From: Mesorhizobium sp. RMAD-H1
GTDB taxonomy: Bacteria; Pseudomonadota; Alphaproteobacteria; Rhizobiales; Rhizobiaceae
Assembly (NCBI RefSeq): GCF_014191375.1
Contig: NZ_JACHWN010000003.1
Coordinates: 62,001-126,000, forward strand
DNA length: 64,000 nt
Direction: 5' to 3'
This document shows, in pieces, positions 1,001 to 61,092 of the stretch (within the stretch, counting starts at the first letter, position 1; every line of letters begins with the position of its first letter). Made by a program: the position numbers and the translations under genes. Under the pieces are notes generated by a model. It did not search any database, was not told where the DNA came from, and saw nothing but the letters and a program-made list of their open reading frames with translations.

Positions 1001-1139
1001 CTGGCGGTACCGACATCACGAGAGCGCCGTAAACTCTCGCCAGAGGGGCCCGGCACCAATGCTCCTCCCGCAGTCCGAGGTCTGTCGCGGGAGCGCCTTT
1101 TACTTAGCAGTGCCGGGCCGAACGTCAAGAGGCACTGCT
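1001..1139. ncRNA. Candidate structured leader RNA with mutually exclusive stems
   Basis: This gap lies between the divergent DUF475 gene and an MFS gene. It contains nested inverted repeats: CTGGCG 1001-1006 with CGCCAG 1038-1043; CGAGAG 1019-1024 with CTCTCG 1034-1039; GGCCCGGCAC 1047-1056 with GTGCCGGGCC 1110-1119 (perfect 10 bp) enclosing CTCCCGC 1065-1071 with GCGGGAG 1087-1093. A fifth stem, AGCAGTGCC 1106-1114 with GGCACTGCT 1131-1139, shares bases with the 10-bp stem, so the two cannot form together. That is the usual layout of a riboswitch or attenuator. The core of the yybP-ykoY manganese riboswitch, often found before TerC-like genes, was looked for and not found. Strand is undetermined because stems read on both strands. 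Confidence 0.35.
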
Positions 1140-2593: not shown

Positions 2594-3367
2594 TTAAAGG
2601 AGGGTCTCCACGCGCTTGCTCAGATCACGGGCTGCGCGTCGGGTTTCTTTCCGATAGGCGCTCCAATCGATTTCCATCGATCCCAAATAACCATCCCGTG
2701 CGTAGCTGACCATTTTGGCCGCCGCGGCGGGCAGGCGGGGTATCGCCCATTCGGCCGCAGCATCCTTGGAAACGAACTCTCCTGTCGTCAGTGTCCGCCA
2801 CATGCGTGCCAGTGTCAGAAGGACGTTGCGCTCGTCTCCCTCGAGCGTGTCGAGCAAAGCGGGAAGCGCATCTCCCATCGCTCGATGCAGATCGGCCTTC
2901 GGGATGATGGGCAGCAGTTGGGCAGGATGGGGACCAGTGAGCACCTTCGCTTCGTGCCTCGCCTGCGCCAGGAGCACGGTCAGTTCCGGATCGGAGCCGG
3001 GTTCCGGCACTTCACCCGCCTCGAATGCTTCACGCAGCCATTCGCCATAGACGAATTCGCTGCGCGCGGGATAGGCCGGACTGGCGAGATCGTCGCGATG
3101 AAAGACGATCAGCTCGATGGGACGCATGATGTCCCCTCTGCCGGGATGTCCCGATATCTTCATCAGCTCGGTCGTCAGCTGCGCGCGCGCTGCATGTGTC
3201 GTCGGCTGATCGATGACGGCAAGCACATCCACGTCGCTGTTGGGATGCAGGCCACCCGCGACGGCCGAGCCGTGGAGATAGGCAGCCAGCAGTGAATGCC
3301 CGAATGTTTGCTTCAGGATCAAGAGCGCCTGCTCCGCCTCGGCAGGAATTGGCACTATTTCGCTCAT
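2594..3367 (-). CDS. AadA-like aminoglycoside 3''-O-nucleotidyltransferase
   Basis: A 257-residue protein of the ANT(3'') family (AadA is about 262 residues). The N-terminal nucleotidyltransferase core has HGSAVAGG (residues 32-39) followed by the metal-binding pair D45 and D47, and E85 sits where the catalytic base of AadA lies. The C-terminal helical domain has YGEW (W110) and GDERNVLLTLARMW (D178). These match the positions of AadA Trp112 and Asp182, which allow both streptomycin and spectinomycin to be used. The start at 3367 has GAGGAGATAG directly upstream. No integron, cassette site or mobile element is present, so this looks like a chromosomal housekeeping copy and not an acquired cassette. 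Resistance is inferred. Confidence 0.85.
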   Translation of the reverse strand: MSEIVPIPAEAEQALLILKQTFGHSLLAAYLHGSAVAGGLHPNSDVDVLAVIDQPTTHAARAQLTTELMKISGHPGRGDIMRPIELIVFHRDDLASPAYPARSEFVYGEWLREAFEAGEVPEPGSDPELTVLLAQARHEAKVLTGPHPAQLLPIIPKADLHRAMGDALPALLDTLEGDERNVLLTLARMWRTLTTGEFVSKDAAAEWAIPRLPAAAAKMVSYARDGYLGSMEIDWSAYRKETRRAARDLSKRVETLL

Positions 3368-32106: not shown

Positions 32107-32494
32107 ACCGGGATGCGATAGATCAATTCGGCAGGCCGCTCTCCGCTCCATCCGGATGTGCTCTTCGCGGGTGAAGATGAACTACCGTTCTACTTTCATG
32201 GATCGTTAGATTGGATGGGGAAAAACTTCGCCTTGAAGGTCAGGCTGAATTTAATGTGCGAGGCATCGTCAAGCGCGGCGGACGCACGCAAATCCAGTGT
32301 TTCCTGCCAAAAGCAGAGTGAGATACACGTGTACCAGCTTATCCATAGAAGATACAAAAATACCTGATGTAATTTTTGAATTCATCGTGGTATTTAATTA
32401 TGACTTCTCCCAAAATTCTGGCGATATGAACGGTTTCATAACCATCATTCGGATATTTGCTTCGATTATTATTTAGGCATGTGCTATAGAACGA
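32107..32494. other. Intergenic region before small RNA 1
   Basis: This stretch lies between the EF-G-like stop and the first small RNA. A 69-codon frame at 32158-32367 has no ribosome site or recognisable family. The end of the region is AT-rich and contains the presumed small RNA promoter, with TATAGA at 32485-32490 as a likely -10 element; no clear -35 is visible. Confidence 0.45.
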
Positions 32495-32611
32495 ATCATT
32501 GAGTTCAACGCTTTGGCTCCTCCCTGAACTCAATACTGAACATGGCGCTCTCCTCCCTGCCGTGTTCATGGATATGGCCCGCTGCTCCTCCTCCCGCAGC
32601 GGGCCTTTTTT
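32495..32611 (+). ncRNA. Alpha-r14/NfeR1-like small RNA, copy 1 (anti-Shine-Dalgarno loops)
   Basis: Three consecutive hairpins are visible. Hairpin 1: TTGAGTTCA 32499-32507 with TGAACTCAA 32525-32533 and a loop ending GGCTCCTCCC. Hairpin 2: TGAACATGGC 32537-32546 with GCCGTGTTCA 32559-32568 and loop GCTCTCCTCCCT. Hairpin 3: GGCCCGCTGC 32576-32585 with GCAGCGGGCC 32596-32605 and loop TCCTCCTCCC, followed by a run of Ts. Every loop holds a CUCCUCCC-type motif complementary to Shine-Dalgarno sequences, the hallmark of the alpha-r14 family (NfeR1/Smr14C2 of Sinorhizobium). The length, about 117 nt, fits. Expected role: base-pairing with the ribosome sites of many transporter mRNAs. The 5' end is inferred from TATAGA at 32485-32490. 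Confidence 0.82.
32576..32611 (+). terminator. Intrinsic terminator of small RNA 1
   Basis: A perfect 10-bp GC-rich stem (32576-32585 with 32596-32605) is followed immediately by TTTTTT at 32606-32611. It is canonical for Rho-independent termination and doubles as the third hairpin of the RNA. Confidence 0.88.
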
Positions 32612-32883
32612 ATTGTTGCGTCGGATGTAATTTCATAATTTCCGGCGCTTCTTCAGAGAATTCATCGGGTTCTATTTGAAGACATCGTAAGGATGGCTCG
32701 CTTTCATCGAAAGCGGAAAGTATTTCTGAGATTTCACATTCGCTCAGACGGCCTGGTCGCTGATCATTGGCTCGGTATCAATGGGCAGATATTCCATCCG
32801 CCGCTCTTGAGGTTACGAAGCGAGCAGGGCTAGGGGCTGAAGCGGCAGAATCAAAGGAAGAACTGGACAGGTGCGTCCGTCAG

Positions 32884-32924
32884 AAAAAAACAACACCCGC
32901 CGCGGGAGGAGGTGCGGCGGGTGT
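32884..32924 (-). terminator. Intrinsic terminator of small RNA 2
   Basis: ACACCCGCCGC 32893-32903 and GCGGCGGGTGT 32914-32924 form a perfect stem. On the minus strand it is followed, after two bases, by seven Ts (complement of 32884-32890). Confidence 0.88.
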
Positions 32925-33001
32925 CGTTAGGGTAAGGCTGGCTGGGAGGAGGAGGTGCCAGCCTTAATCGCGCAGGTTTGGGAGGAGGTAAACCCTTGCG
33001 A
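32884..33001 (-). ncRNA. Alpha-r14/NfeR1-like small RNA, copy 2 (minus strand)
   Basis: Read on the minus strand, three hairpins again carry anti-Shine-Dalgarno loops. Hairpin 1: GGTTT with AAACC (bases 32975-32979 and 32990-32994, plus outer CGC/GCG pairs) and loop ACCTCCTCCC. Hairpin 2: a 9-bp perfect stem (32934-32942 with 32957-32965) and loop ACCTCCTCCTCCCA. Hairpin 3: an 11-bp perfect stem (32893-32903 with 32914-32924) and loop ACCTCCTCCC, then a run of Ts. It shares architecture and loop motif, but not stem sequence, with the plus-strand RNA 270 bases away, and the two transcripts converge. A likely -10 element, GATAGAG, lies at 33005-33011. Length is about 118 nt. Confidence 0.8.
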
Positions 33002-33136
33002 AGCTCTATCTTCGAAACTGAAAATAAACCAAATCGCCGGAATTGGAATGCACAATACTGCATAGCAGCAATGTTTCTGATGCAATGCAATATCGATTTC
33101 CCGCAGGGCGTTGGGCTGAGTCATGCCGGTAGGACG

Positions 33137-42812: not shown

Positions 42813-45800
42813 TCAGAAGCGGAGCTTGAAGTCCGCGCGGGCCTTGTTTTCGGTCACGTCCTCAGAGAATTCGCCGTGATAGGAAACGCCGAAATCCGCG
42901 CGCTCGCTGAGCTTCATGCCGATCCCGAGCGAAACCTTGGCGGCGTCGCGTCCGATGGGGGTGCCCGAAACCAGGAAGCCGTCACCTCCGGCAAAGGACA
43001 CCCGGCTTTCGGGCGTCACATCCCCGAAGGCGTGCTGCCAACCGGCCATGGCGTTCCAGGTCATGGCAGCGCCGGTCAGGCCAAGATCGCCCTCGGCCCG
43101 CAGACCCACCGTGGTGAAGGTCGCATCGGCATCGCTGTCCGTCGCCGAGAGCGCCGCCGCCCCGCCGGTTTCGCGGAAGCCGTCCGTCGAGAGGGTGGCG
43201 TAGGACAGGTTGGCGAAGGGGGAGAGCTCCACCTGCTTGCCGAGTTTGAAGCCATAGCTCGCTTCGCCGAAGAATTGCGCCAGGCCTGCATCATAATCGG
43301 CCTTCAGCGAGTCCGAGAAACCGCTCAGGACGATCGACCGGCTCGTTTCGACCTGGTTGAAGCTATAGGCAGCGCCAGCCTTCAGCGACAGCTGGCCGAT
43401 GTCCTTTCCGCCATAGACGCCGACATGGTAGCTGTCGATATCCGCCGAACCGCCGGTGCGGTCGCTGTCGAGCGAGGAACGTCCCCATCCCGCCACCACG
43501 CCGAGGCGCACATCATCGGTGACGAAGCCGTCGCCGCCGATGAAGACACCGCCGCCGGAGAGGTCGTAGGACGCGGCATTGCCGTCGCTGCCGAAGCTGC
43601 TGCGCATGCCGTAGCCGGACGTCCATGCGCCGGTATCGCCAGAGCTCAGACGGTCGAGGACCGTATCGCTGACGATCCGGGAATTGCCGAGCAGGGCCGA
43701 CTGGACGCTGGCATGTTCCTCGCCGGAAAGCTGGTCGAAGGCGTTGCGCGCATTCTCCGCATTCATGAAGAGGACCGCGTTATAGAGCGGCAGACTGCTG
43801 GAGCCGGCCGATTGGTCGAGCGCATCGAGACCGGTCGCGACAGCCTGCTGGTTCGCAGTCTGCGCCGCGGTGGTAAAGGAACGGCCGCCCCAGGATGAGA
43901 GACGCAAGGTTACGTCGTTGACCGTGTAGAGGAGCTGCGAATTGATAAAGGCGGAGTCGATCAGAAGATTACCGAACTGCCCGGCCACATTGCCGGCTGT
44001 CAGGAATGTGTAGGACTGGCCTGACGCATAGCTGACGGTCGGGTCGAGCGCGATCACATTCAGGCTGGCACCGTCGATCGCAGCCGTTCCGCTGACGATC
44101 GTCCGGTCGGATGTGCCGTCATTGGCGATTTCCAGATCATAGGCGGAGCCAGGCGACAGTGTAAGATTGCCATTGACGTTGAGCGTGCCAATGGAATTGC
44201 CAGGAGACAGACGGCTGCCGCTTTTCAGCGCTACGCCTCCGACGGTGCCATTGCCGCCAAGGATTGCACCGGCCTCCACGTCCAACGATCCGCCCCACGA
44301 ACCATTGACCGCGAAACGGCCGCCGCTGACGAGTGTCGTTCCGGTGAATTGCGAACCGTCGCCCGTATAAACCAGATTGCCCGTTCCGCGCTTTTCAAAC
44401 CCGCCGGTCCCGGAGATGGTGTTGGCGAGCGTGCTTTCCACCAGCGTGTTGACCATCAATTGCCCAGCGGCATCGATCTGGATCGCCCCGGTGCCGAAAG
44501 CATTGCCGCTGCTGCCAGCGAGCACGCCGCCGCTGACGCGGGTACCGCCGGAATAGGTGTTGAGGCCGGTCAGCATCAGCATGCCGGTGCCTTCCTTCGT
44601 CAGCGTGCCGGTTCCGCCGATGTCGTTGCGCCAGGCGTCGAAGGCGTTGAAACCGTCGAGGCTCTTGTCCATGTTGACGGTGACGTCCTCCCAGAACGCG
44701 CCATAGCCATCGGCTGCCGCGAAGAGGTTGAGCCGGCCATAGCCTTCCGGATCGTCCATGACCGGATAGCCGGAGGGGAGGGCGGTGGTGGCGAGAACCG
44801 CGCGGCGCTGATCCACGGTGAGATAGGGCATGCGGGTTTCCAGCAGCACCTCCGCGCCCTTCGGCACATAGGCGGGCTTGTCCGTCGCGCCGATGGGCGC
44901 GAAGCCATAGGTCATGCGTTCGGCCACATAGGCTGCGTTGGCCTCCCGGCTGGCAAAACGGTCCGTCGAGAGATCAGCTGCATGCGCCGCGACATAAAGA
45001 TCGGCTGCCGTTGCCGAGTTCGTTTCCTTTTTCAGCCATGCCTGGGTCTGCTCATAGGCCTGGGCTTTGAGGTCCTGGGCGCTCGCCTGATTGAGATTGT
45101 AGACCACGGCTGCCGTGCCCAGCATGCGGCCGCCGATGACGTCGAGCGGGGAATGCATGCCGGCGATGATGCGGCTGTCACCCATCACGACAGCGCGCGT
45201 GATCAGTTCCTGGAAGCGCTGCGGCACGAGATAGGCCATGGCCAGCGCGTTGCGCCACGCCTCTGCGGTATGACCGCTCGGGAAGCCGCCATCGGTGACG
45301 GGTGAGCTGCTCTTGGCCGGCTCCAGCGTCGGAAGGACCTCGACGTCGCTCGACCAGCGCCACGGGCGCGCATATTTGAAGTAACGCTTGGAGGGTTCCG
45401 TGGAGGCGTCCGCGCCAACCCGGCCCAGAAGATCGACAGCCAGGCCAAGATCGGGATTGCCGCTGCTGCCGATGCCTGTGTTGTTGCCCTCGTCGTCATA
45501 TTTGACGGTCGTCGCATCGGGAGCGACATCGAGGATGGTCGTGAACTGCTTGGTGCCCTTGACCCAGGCATCCTGAAGCGGGCCGAGCCCGTCCAGCATG
45601 CTGATCGCCTTGCCGCGACGGTCATCGAGATAGGCTTCGGTCGCCTGCTGCGCGGTGCGATTGCGCGTGGCGTTGACGACATATTGGATATTATAGTCGT
45701 GCACCGCCTGATTGAGGATGATCCCATCCGTGGCGCTGCCCGGTATGCCATCCCAGTCCGTCGTCGGGACGGCGGGAAAGCCATCGCGTGCGGGGGCCGA

Positions 45801-46046
45801 CGTGCCGGCGTCCACAAAGGGCGTGCGGGGCTGCCAGATATCCAGGAACCCGCTGAGCAGCCGGACGGCTGCGTTGGTTTCCTTCGTGGCATAGCGGGCA
45901 TCCCCACGCTGGTTCGTTGCACCGGTATCCATGAAGGCCGGAACATCTTTGTTCAGATAGGCTTCTTGTGCCAGAGCCATGCTCGGGCAGGCGCTGAAAA
46001 CCAGGTAAAGCGCCGTGGATACGCGAAGTTTCGCAACTATAGGCAA
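42813..46046 (-). CDS. Autotransporter with N-terminal PAP2 acid-phosphatase domain
   Basis: A 1077-residue protein in three parts. A signal peptide (MPIVAKLRVSTALYLV, cleaved after ALA at about 27) is followed by a class A acid phosphatase/PAP2 domain to about residue 330 with the complete catalytic set: K-x6-RP in KRYFKYARPWRW (about 220-231), PSGH (256-259) and SR-x5-H-x3-D in SRIIAGMHSPLDVIGGR (about 291-307). Passenger repeats (PATR type, GTGTLTKEGTGMLMLTGLNT near 505 and a second copy) lead to a C-terminal autotransporter beta-barrel of about 270 residues ending in KLRF. The start is TTG 46046, with GGGGGA 6 bases upstream; GTG 46073 is also in frame but has poor spacing. The phosphatase would be displayed on, or released from, the cell surface. 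Confidence 0.87.
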   Translation of the reverse strand: MPIVAKLRVSTALYLVFSACPSMALAQEAYLNKDVPAFMDTGATNQRGDARYATKETNAAVRLLSGFLDIWQPRTPFVDAGTSAPARDGFPAVPTTDWDGIPGSATDGIILNQAVHDYNIQYVVNATRNRTAQQATEAYLDDRRGKAISMLDGLGPLQDAWVKGTKQFTTILDVAPDATTVKYDDEGNNTGIGSSGNPDLGLAVDLLGRVGADASTEPSKRYFKYARPWRWSSDVEVLPTLEPAKSSSPVTDGGFPSGHTAEAWRNALAMAYLVPQRFQELITRAVVMGDSRIIAGMHSPLDVIGGRMLGTAAVVYNLNQASAQDLKAQAYEQTQAWLKKETNSATAADLYVAAHAADLSTDRFASREANAAYVAERMTYGFAPIGATDKPAYVPKGAEVLLETRMPYLTVDQRRAVLATTALPSGYPVMDDPEGYGRLNLFAAADGYGAFWEDVTVNMDKSLDGFNAFDAWRNDIGGTGTLTKEGTGMLMLTGLNTYSGGTRVSGGVLAGSSGNAFGTGAIQIDAAGQLMVNTLVESTLANTISGTGGFEKRGTGNLVYTGDGSQFTGTTLVSGGRFAVNGSWGGSLDVEAGAILGGNGTVGGVALKSGSRLSPGNSIGTLNVNGNLTLSPGSAYDLEIANDGTSDRTIVSGTAAIDGASLNVIALDPTVSYASGQSYTFLTAGNVAGQFGNLLIDSAFINSQLLYTVNDVTLRLSSWGGRSFTTAAQTANQQAVATGLDALDQSAGSSSLPLYNAVLFMNAENARNAFDQLSGEEHASVQSALLGNSRIVSDTVLDRLSSGDTGAWTSGYGMRSSFGSDGNAASYDLSGGGVFIGGDGFVTDDVRLGVVAGWGRSSLDSDRTGGSADIDSYHVGVYGGKDIGQLSLKAGAAYSFNQVETSRSIVLSGFSDSLKADYDAGLAQFFGEASYGFKLGKQVELSPFANLSYATLSTDGFRETGGAAALSATDSDADATFTTVGLRAEGDLGLTGAAMTWNAMAGWQHAFGDVTPESRVSFAGGDGFLVSGTPIGRDAAKVSLGIGMKLSERADFGVSYHGEFSEDVTENKARADFKLRF

Positions 46047-46189
46047 GGCAGATCCCCCAATGAAAAATGTCACCCTTTGAGTGAGGGGTCTGCTCTAGTT
46101 GTTTAACTTATATCTTATATGACAAGGTTGCCGCGACACCGAGTTTCGGCCTTCTTGCCGGATCGGCTTGGTCGGATCAGCGTATCCCT

Positions 46190-59940: not shown

Positions 59941-61092
59941 TCAATCCTGTGGAGCGTAAGTCCAGGTGCCGTTTTCAATGCGCACGAGAACCTCGGCCCG
60001 AAGATCGGTGCCGTTGTGATTCGTCGGGCTCATGTTGAAGACGCCCTGCGCGCCGACGAGTTCGCTGGTTCCCTCGATGGCGTCCCTCAACGCCGCGCGG
60101 AAGGCTTCGGTGCCGGGCTCGCCCGCTTCCTTCGCCTTTGGTGCGGCGGCTTCCACGATGAGGAATGCGTCCCAGATGGTGGCACCGAAAAGCGAGCGGG
60201 TGCCGGGGCCGTACTTCCCTTCGTAGGTTTGGACGTATTTGAGAGCGACCGGCTTCACTGGATTGTCGTCCGGAAGCTGCTCGGCCACGAGCGCGGGCGA
60301 AACCGCGAGCATCACCCCCTCGAGGCCTTCGCCGCCTACGCGCAGCACATCGGGATTGGCCATACCTTGATTGATGTAGATCGAGCCGCCGTAGCCCTGG
60401 TTGCGCAACTCGAGTATCGGAGCCACACCCGGCGTGCCGGACGAGCCGATTACCACCGCGTCGGGATTGACGGCAATGACCTGCAGGACCTGCGCGGTAA
60501 CGCTTGTGTCCTTTGCATTGTAGCGCTCGTCGGCGACTACCTGGATCCCTTTCTCTTCGGCGACCTTTTTGAATTCGCCGATGAAGGAATCGCCGAAAGC
60601 GTCGTTGAAGCCGATGAAGCCGACCGTCTTGTTGCCGTCTTTCTCCATCTGGCCATAGACATAGGCGGCCATGGTCGGCTCTTCCGGCGCCAGCTTGAAC
60701 ACCCAGGTCTTCGGGCCCTCTACCGGTTTTGCGATGACCGCCGAACCGGCGGCGGAAATCATCGGCGTCTTTCCGGCCGCGACCGTCTCGATGATGGCCA
60801 GCGATGTCGGCGTGATGGAGGGACCGAGGATGACGTCAACTTTCTCCTCATCGATGAGCTTCTTGGCCGCGCGCACTGCAGCCGAAGGGTCGCTGGCGTC
60901 GTCGAGTACGATATATTGCACCGGTTCACCATCAATGGTCCGGGGCAACACGTCTATCGTGTTCTTTTCAGGTATCCCAAGTGAGGCAGCCGGTCCCGTC
61001 AGCGACAGTATGGCACCGATCTTCATATCCGCATGTGCGGGGAAGGTGGCTATGAGCGATGCCACGACGACGCCGATCATCCGGTTTTGCAT
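59941..61092 (-). CDS. ABC transporter substrate-binding protein, LivK/aromatic-acid type
   Basis: A 383-residue Peripla_BP_6 protein. Signal peptide to about residue 22 (PAHA/DMK), then KIGAILSLTGPAASLG with the ligand-loop serine/threonine, and GFIGFNDAFGDSFIGEFKK. Such proteins bind amino acids, but in catabolic islands also aromatic carboxylates. No MFS-type HpaX is seen in the island, so this ABC system is the best candidate importer of 4-hydroxyphenylacetate or a relative. ATG 61092 has GGGAGGA 6 bases upstream; an HpaR-like site lies 80 bases upstream. Confidence 0.86.
   Translation of the reverse strand: MQNRMIGVVVASLIATFPAHADMKIGAILSLTGPAASLGIPEKNTIDVLPRTIDGEPVQYIVLDDASDPSAAVRAAKKLIDEEKVDVILGPSITPTSLAIIETVAAGKTPMISAAGSAVIAKPVEGPKTWVFKLAPEEPTMAAYVYGQMEKDGNKTVGFIGFNDAFGDSFIGEFKKVAEEKGIQVVADERYNAKDTSVTAQVLQVIAVNPDAVVIGSSGTPGVAPILELRNQGYGGSIYINQGMANPDVLRVGGEGLEGVMLAVSPALVAEQLPDDNPVKPVALKYVQTYEGKYGPGTRSLFGATIWDAFLIVEAAAPKAKEAGEPGTEAFRAALRDAIEGTSELVGAQGVFNMSPTNHNGTDLRAEVLVRIENGTWTYAPQD

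Follow-up and report, generated by a model that had tools for sequence, protein, structure and literature searches.

Two convergent αr14 RNAs at the locus

The window (the whole 64,000-nucleotide stretch of DNA that was analysed, G000:C3:62001-126000) carries two small RNAs of the αr14 family. They converge across 276 bases, measured between their Rfam matches; an earlier sequence-only reading had put the facing pair about 270 bases apart. Each RNA lies 3' of a gene on its own strand, the plus copy 387 bases from an EF-G-like gene and the minus copy 130 bases from an APC permease gene. The features of the locus are as follows.

32438..32448, plus: conserved element ATAACCATCAT upstream of the plus copy (from an alignment of six plus-type upstream regions)
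32460..32489, plus: predicted sigma-70-like promoter of the plus copy, CTTCGAT-N17-CTATAG
32494..32611, plus: αr14 small RNA, plus copy (RF02344, 69.9 bits; orthologs in 6/6 genus genomes)
32498..32534, plus: predicted hairpin 1, loop GCUCCUCCC, with a small 2-bp inner helix in the MFE fold
32537..32568, plus: predicted hairpin 2, loop UCUCCUCCC
32576..32605, plus: predicted hairpin 3, loop CUCCUCCUCCC, followed by a U tract (likely intrinsic terminator)
32517-32524, 32550-32557 and 32588-32595, plus: CTCCTCCC in the loops of the plus copy (motif search)
32888..33006, minus: αr14 small RNA, minus copy (RF02344, 98.2 bits; orthologs in 6/6 genus genomes)
32968..33001, minus: predicted hairpin 1, loop CCUCCUCCC
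32933..32966, minus: predicted hairpin 2, loop CCUCCUCCUCCC
32889..32928, minus: predicted hairpin 3, loop CCUCCUCCC, followed by a U tract (likely intrinsic terminator)
32904-32911, 32944-32951 and 32980-32987, minus: CTCCTCCC in the loops of the minus copy (motif search on the complement)
33060..33071, minus: conserved element TTGCTGCTATGC upstream of the minus copy (type found in 6/6 minus-type copies)
33071..33084, minus: LsrB-like box TGCA-N6-ACAT upstream of the minus copy (6/6 minus-type copies; one base off TGCA-N6-GCAT)

Family assignment, fold and loop motifs

The window was searched against all Rfam families with cmscan. The plus copy matched ar14 (RF02344) at 32494-32611 (+) with 69.9 bits (E 1.5e-10) and the minus copy at 33006-32888 (-) with 98.2 bits (E 7.8e-17), and no other family was matched at either RNA. 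Both scores clear the gathering cut-off of 58.8 bits. The covariance-model search that the sequence-only reading had named as a check thus upheld its identification of two αr14/NfeR1-type RNAs, and the ends it had given for both lie within 5 bases of the Rfam ends. By the latter, the RNAs are 118 nt (plus) and 119 nt (minus) long, the family criterion being about 123 nt and three hairpins. Each was predicted to fold into three hairpins, with energies 7.2 (plus) and 8.6 (minus) standard deviations below the mean of 200 dinucleotide shuffles of the same RNA, none of which was as good as the real sequence.

An anti-Shine-Dalgarno motif in the loops is a further αr14 criterion, and CTCCTCCC occurs three times in each copy, always in a loop, in agreement with the earlier description of three stem-loops per RNA and a motif in all six loops. 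Under a strict loop rule the plus copy scores 2/3, because the 2-bp inner helix of its hairpin 1 touches the edge of the motif; the remainder of that motif is unpaired. The exact 9-mer CCTCCTCCC is present in all three loops of the minus copy and in one loop of the plus copy, which has the 8-mer in the other two, and the ortholog of the plus copy in G005 has no exact 9-mer at all. The family description places a 9-mer, CCUCCUCCC, in every loop, but 18 of 57 αr14 copies outside the genus are without three exact 9-mers, so this feature does not define membership in practice. The motif falls in at least two MFE loops in 31/31 genus copies (all three loops in 24/31) and in 54/57 copies outside the genus (all three in 46/57).

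The third hairpin of both copies is rich in G+C and leads into a T tract, which fits the proposal that each RNA has its own intrinsic terminator. A generic terminator scan listed neither hairpin, probably because it was limited to loops of 8 and the loops here have 10. The stems of the two copies differ in sequence, as had been noted. When the third helix was compared in 19 copies, 25 cells were changed on both sides, against 8.2 in shuffles (0/500 reached 25), with the structure derived from the same 19-copy alignment.

Conservation and ancestry of the pair

The host genome (5.14 Mb) contains six ar14 matches. Besides the window pair, these are C1:452882, two neighbours on one strand at C10:57025 and 57148, and C1:217055, which at 54.9 bits is weak and the only one of the six below the cut-off. 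This last match (L006, G000:C1:217055-217167) belongs with L030 and L031 to a diverged αr14-like lineage seen in three genus genomes. Four to eight matches were found in each of the six genus genomes searched, and at least one in 146 of 151 genomes of a Rhizobiaceae-family sample. Multicopy αr14 has been described before in S. meliloti, where there are six NfeR1 loci, only one of which was reliably detected (PMC7143759). In several Sinorhizobium and Rhizobium copies (L161, L164, L169, L172 and L174) an extra ATGCACCTCCTCCCGC lies just upstream of the Rfam start, perhaps as part of a fourth motif-bearing hairpin.

A minus-type and a plus-type copy are convergent in all six genus genomes. In the window the two copies are 276 bases apart, and the corresponding distances are 55 bases in G002, 58 in G003 and 171 in G004; in G001 and G005 the gap is about 2 kb and holds SDR and AraC-type genes (L059 4172-5955 and L063 5505-7283; names from the translated sequence). 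The possibility that the 276-base spacer is a remnant of the G001 SDR/AraC genes was considered and set aside, the best match (E 0.018 over 18 bases) being unconvincing. Convergent αr14 neighbours were found in none of 23 clusters (copies less than 3 kb apart, tallied from the matches listed) in 40 genomes of 40 other genera (G006-G047 without G010 and G011); 22 clusters are same-strand and one is divergent, although some assemblies are in many contigs and one of the 22 (G037) consists of two overlapping matches. The divergent cluster, G021:C6:84335-85162, is the sole opposed pair among these genomes, with its copies about 590 bases apart.

The genes around the pair are less constant. The examined stretches of G004 and G005 lack the APC permease gene, and the stretches of G003 and G005 lack the EF-G-like gene (the contig of G002 ends too near to tell); the RNAs stay while the neighbouring genes change across the genus. 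The EF-G-like gene was rejected as a constant partner of αr14: in a search of the best 80 of 139 relative loci with model R1, an αr14 copy lay beside it only in L067 and L086, both genus members, although R1, with its 12 base pairs, is a weak model that may overlook divergent copies.

In a tree of the 31 genus copies, the plus-type copies (support 100/100) and the minus-type copies (96/99) form separate groups, with the minus group nested among copies from other contigs. The promoter and RNA of the plus copy, used together as a DNA query, gave matches that span most of the query in the six genus genomes only (E 1e-38 or better); in the rest of the 394 genomes the best match had E 2.5e-8, and most covered the third hairpin alone. 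Since the ortholog groups, the convergence and the DNA matches span all six species, the pair is older than these species. Judged by sequence, each window RNA is its own orthologous lineage.

How the pair arose is less clear-cut. The sequence-only reading had suggested family expansion in place, which would amount to one duplication at the locus before the genus radiated, followed by divergence there. A sister relationship of the two window sequences was rejected (p 2.9e-60), but a tree that joins the two ortholog groups in one clade is just 0.9 log units worse and was not rejected (p-AU 0.337), so expansion in place was not established. Same-strand αr14 clusters are common in the family, which speaks for local duplication. 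However, the minus copy is nearest to copies from other contigs and has a third-stem core identical to those of C1_452 and C10_b, its likely relatives outside the genus (minus-type L284 and L287) and those of the plus copy (plus-like L289, L290 and L291) are solitary in stretches of 14-16 kb, and an inversion would be required besides. Local duplication is regarded as possible, though less likely than not.

Upstream regions of the two copies

The published promoter of NfeR1 is CTTAGAC-N17-CTATAT (PMC10746234). The predicted promoter of the plus copy differs from this signature at 3 of 13 positions, a likeness equalled by 40 of 2000 mononucleotide shuffles; among the six plus-type copies there are two or three mismatches in four (that of the window included), and four and six in the others. 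In front of the minus copy no sigma-70 signature of NfeR1 form was recognised (7/13 mismatches). Its conserved element reads TTGCTGC-N2-TGC, with the type present in 6/6 orthologs. Outside the genus, an element of the TTGCTGCTATGC type stands at -53 to -81 in 9 of 46 copies that have no DUF1127-like ORF in front. In an upstream set of 88 copies, mostly high-scoring and not a random sample, 61 have no DUF1127-like motif upstream and 27 have one. A TTGC-type element was found at -95..-20 in 15 of the 61 (six of the 15 being minus-type) and in 1 of the 27, whereas at -470..-95 it occurred once per 22,875 bases without the motif and six times per 10,125 bases with it.

Counted from the Rfam start, the LsrB-like box of the minus copy begins at about -78, and alignment suggests that the RNA may really start some six bases upstream of the Rfam end. 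The LsrB box of NfeR1 was published at -72 to -60 (PMC10746234), and two Phyllobacterium copies (L162 and L163) combine the minus-type second element with an exact TGCA-N6-GCAT at -72 and -73. Within 150 bases 5' of the two window copies, neither an exact LsrB box nor a strict NtrC box (TGC-N11-GCA) was found, and there is no DUF1127-like motif within 600 bases upstream of either. It is proposed that the plus and minus copies answer different signals, the minus copy through an LsrB-like input and the plus copy through a different one.

Relation to known RNAs

The closest known system is NfeR1 of S. meliloti (Smr14C2), the founding αr14 RNA of RF02344, which the window RNAs resemble in length, in three hairpins, in anti-Shine-Dalgarno loops, in variable stems and in being multicopy; the minus copy also has the one-base-off version of its LsrB box. 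Unlike NfeR1, the window RNAs are convergent and without a strict NtrC box, and the host genome lacks the ntrB site. The boxes of NfeR1 were reported as LsrB TGCA-N6-GCAT at about -72 and NtrC TGC-N11-GCA at about -116 to -101 (PMC10746234). In S. medicae (L165) and S. fredii (L156), the copies that probably correspond to NfeR1 carry the two boxes close to these positions, whereas the window copies have neither exact box and, by this comparison, are not NfeR1 orthologs in the narrow sense.

Three other host copies (C1_452, C10_a and C10_b) have a short ORF with a DUF1127-like motif in front, as identified by motif. This layout is that of the CIN1-type loci of the CcsR/CcaF1 system (the cuckoo RNA family), from which the window copies differ in having no such ORF. 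We assume that the CcsR/cuckoo RNAs and the αr14 copies here share their loop motif. At the CIN1 locus the gene for a short DUF1127 protein (CcaF1) is followed by CcsR-like RNAs (PMC10253847). AbcR1 and AbcR2 show anti-Shine-Dalgarno-type pairing with transporter mRNAs of the kind proposed for the window RNAs, but the latter match ar14 and no other Rfam family. The AbcR1/AbcR2 family is presumably the one named αr15. LsrB co-activates AbcR1 and NfeR1, and the motifs of AbcR and NfeR1 are similar, though not identical (PMC10746234).

Ribosome-site complementarity and candidate targets

Candidate sites were defined as at least 7 contiguous bases of GGGAGGAGGAGG within 25 bases before the start. 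In the host, 64 binding-protein loci of three families gave 63 usable ORFs (L260 has no ORF, with internal stops); the control ORFs came from the window, less two binding-protein genes, and from ten stretches of 20 kb. A codon-position G+C filter was applied to both sets, and start codons were picked in both by the same rule, which favours a good Shine-Dalgarno sequence. Binding-protein matches were excluded from three host control stretches, and none from the S. medicae control. Sites were found in 20/63 binding-protein genes and 8/146 control ORFs (p 1.4e-6; 20/63 vs 9/148 before the window genes were removed). The difference persisted among genes with strong Shine-Dalgarno sequences, at or below -7 kcal/mol in both sets (20/43 vs 8/59, p 3.1e-4). 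By family, sites occurred in 16/29 Peripla_BP_4, 2/17 SBP_bac_5 and 2/17 SBP_bac_3 genes. In Sinorhizobium medicae, 19/28 Peripla_BP_4 genes had sites against 14/118 control ORFs (p 6e-9), and 19/25 against 14/58 among strong Shine-Dalgarno genes (p 1.7e-5). The Peripla_BP_4 loci that carry this surplus of GGGAGGA-type sites (L237-L266 in the host, L294-L323 in S. medicae) are samples of 30 of 41 host matches and 30 of 59 S. medicae matches, two of the latter 30 having no passing ORF.

Several observations qualify the surplus. Because genes within a family share ancestry, their site counts are not independent draws, and the Shine-Dalgarno sequences of the binding-protein genes are stronger overall than those of the controls (p 6e-4 in the host, p 7e-6 in S. 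medicae). Outside the Shine-Dalgarno region (-55..-30), 6-nt matches were in small excess at the binding-protein genes of the host (5/63 vs 2/146) but not at those of S. medicae (1/28 vs 4/118). Matches of at least 8 nt showed no surplus in S. medicae (5/28 vs 8/118, p 0.13), nor did the host control have significantly more GGAGGT-type sites (1/63 vs 7/148, p 0.44). G081, a genome in which αr14 gave no match, holds only 10 Peripla_BP_4 matches, not enough to serve as a negative control. The GGGAGGA surplus could instead be due to AbcR RNAs or to shared ancestry of the genes.

Within the window, a complement of at least 7 nt precedes 6 of 31 coding-like ORFs, and two of these six are transport genes by Pfam. 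The sequence-only reading had named nearby transporter genes, an APC permease and binding-protein genes, as first targets. Of these, the Peripla_BP_6 gene at 59941-61092, which encodes a branched-chain-type binding protein, has a GGGAGGA ribosome site, with duplex energies of -14.6 to -15.1 kcal/mol for the sRNA loops vs -10.9 for an assumed 16S tail. At a model GGAGGU site the 16S tail was preferred over five of the six loops. The APC permease was rejected as a target: none of the in-frame starts within its first 80 codons is preceded by GGAGG, no complement there exceeds 4 nt, and its duplexes with the loops are poor (-4.3 to -5.9). A 5-nt complement does precede a far internal ATG, but the Pfam domain already starts at residue 11. 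GGGAGGA is also present at the EF-G-like gene that lies upstream of the plus copy, and the best duplex of this gene is with plus loop 1 (-19.6). The published NfeR1 target ntrB, taken in the host as the 386-aa ORF directly before ntrC, was likewise rejected, with no contiguous complement longer than 3 nt and a best loop duplex of -10.4 kcal/mol vs -10.7 for the 16S tail. Elsewhere in the window, GGGAGGAG, an 8-nt αr14 complement (1062-1069, minus strand), lies directly in front of an Rfam terC RNA (RF03067, 63.9 bits; 1001-1061, minus strand).

Proposed function

The family match, the fold, the exposed motifs, the orthology, the upstream conservation and the surplus of sites at one binding-protein class were computed here. 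The αr14 family itself, its structure, its multicopy state and its mode of action are already in print (PMC7143759, PMC10746234). NfeR1 is activated by LsrB and repressed by NtrC, and its three redundant seeds occlude the ribosome site and lower protein levels (PMC10746234). The preferred reading, with a probability of roughly 0.85, is that the window encodes two αr14 trans-acting RNAs, each with its own promoter and ended at its third hairpin, whose loops block Shine-Dalgarno sites, which share a seed but answer different signals, and whose targets are uptake systems. Each RNA would be made from its own promoter and terminated by its own third hairpin. The single-stranded loops (CUCCUCCC/CCUCCUCCC) are predicted to pair with GGGAGGA/GGAGGAG Shine-Dalgarno sites, which would keep the ribosome off the mRNA and probably speed its decay. 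Repression, independence of Hfq and redundancy of the three seeds would follow by analogy with S. meliloti NfeR1. Given the shared seed, the two RNAs would have largely one target set. Uptake systems would be the principal targets, foremost among them the Peripla_BP_4-type binding proteins, which we take to be sugar-type.

Two other readings were weighed against this one. The RNAs could be mere strong terminators or 3'-UTR pieces of the EF-G-like gene and the APC permease gene, with no role of their own; both do lie behind same-strand genes, at 387 and 130 bases, and other host copies sit behind DUF1127-like ORFs. However, the flanking genes vary by species while RNA and upstream element are constant, and a terminator has no need of three hairpins or of a fixed motif in its loops, which makes this account very improbable. 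It is less easily dismissed that only one copy is active and the other is a paralogue with low expression, retained by chance or because it serves in rare conditions. The precedent is S. meliloti, with only one of six loci reliably detected (PMC7143759), and by the same token one or both window copies may ordinarily be silent. The single exact 9-mer of the plus copy, the lack of any in its G005 ortholog and the poor sigma-70 signature in 2/6 plus-type copies point the same way. Both types are nevertheless kept with structure and upstream element in 6/6 species, and a single active copy is considered possible but rather unlikely.

The preferred reading, of two trans-acting RNAs, might be carried further. 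The window pair would then be two αr14 lineages face to face, with different inputs and one seed, which together with their paralogues read a GGGAGGA mark on Peripla_BP_4-type uptake genes in rhizobia; this extension is tentative and, on present evidence, doubtful. As GGGAGGA is commoner at Peripla_BP_4-type genes in two genera, one seed could shut an uptake class and spare most translation. The surplus at one binding-protein family in two genera is a cheap and concrete handle on what αr14 regulates, and bears on how an RNA that mimics the ribosome's tail avoids halting all translation. Although αr14 is near-ubiquitous in the family (146/151 genomes), the functional work met concerns one member, NfeR1 of S. 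meliloti; the window offers two copies that can be told apart by upstream sequence and are kept in six species. A literature search for Paramesorhizobium with sRNA found no paper, most subscription papers being outside its scope. The convergent pair and the Peripla_BP_4 site surplus met with no mention in an αr14 literature that was mostly open-access, and neither is claimed as unreported.

Two further genes of the window were noted. An AadA-type aminoglycoside adenylyltransferase-like protein is encoded at 2594-3367 (minus strand), and the product of 42813-46073 (minus strand) is an autotransporter beta-domain protein with an additional PAP2 phosphatase domain.
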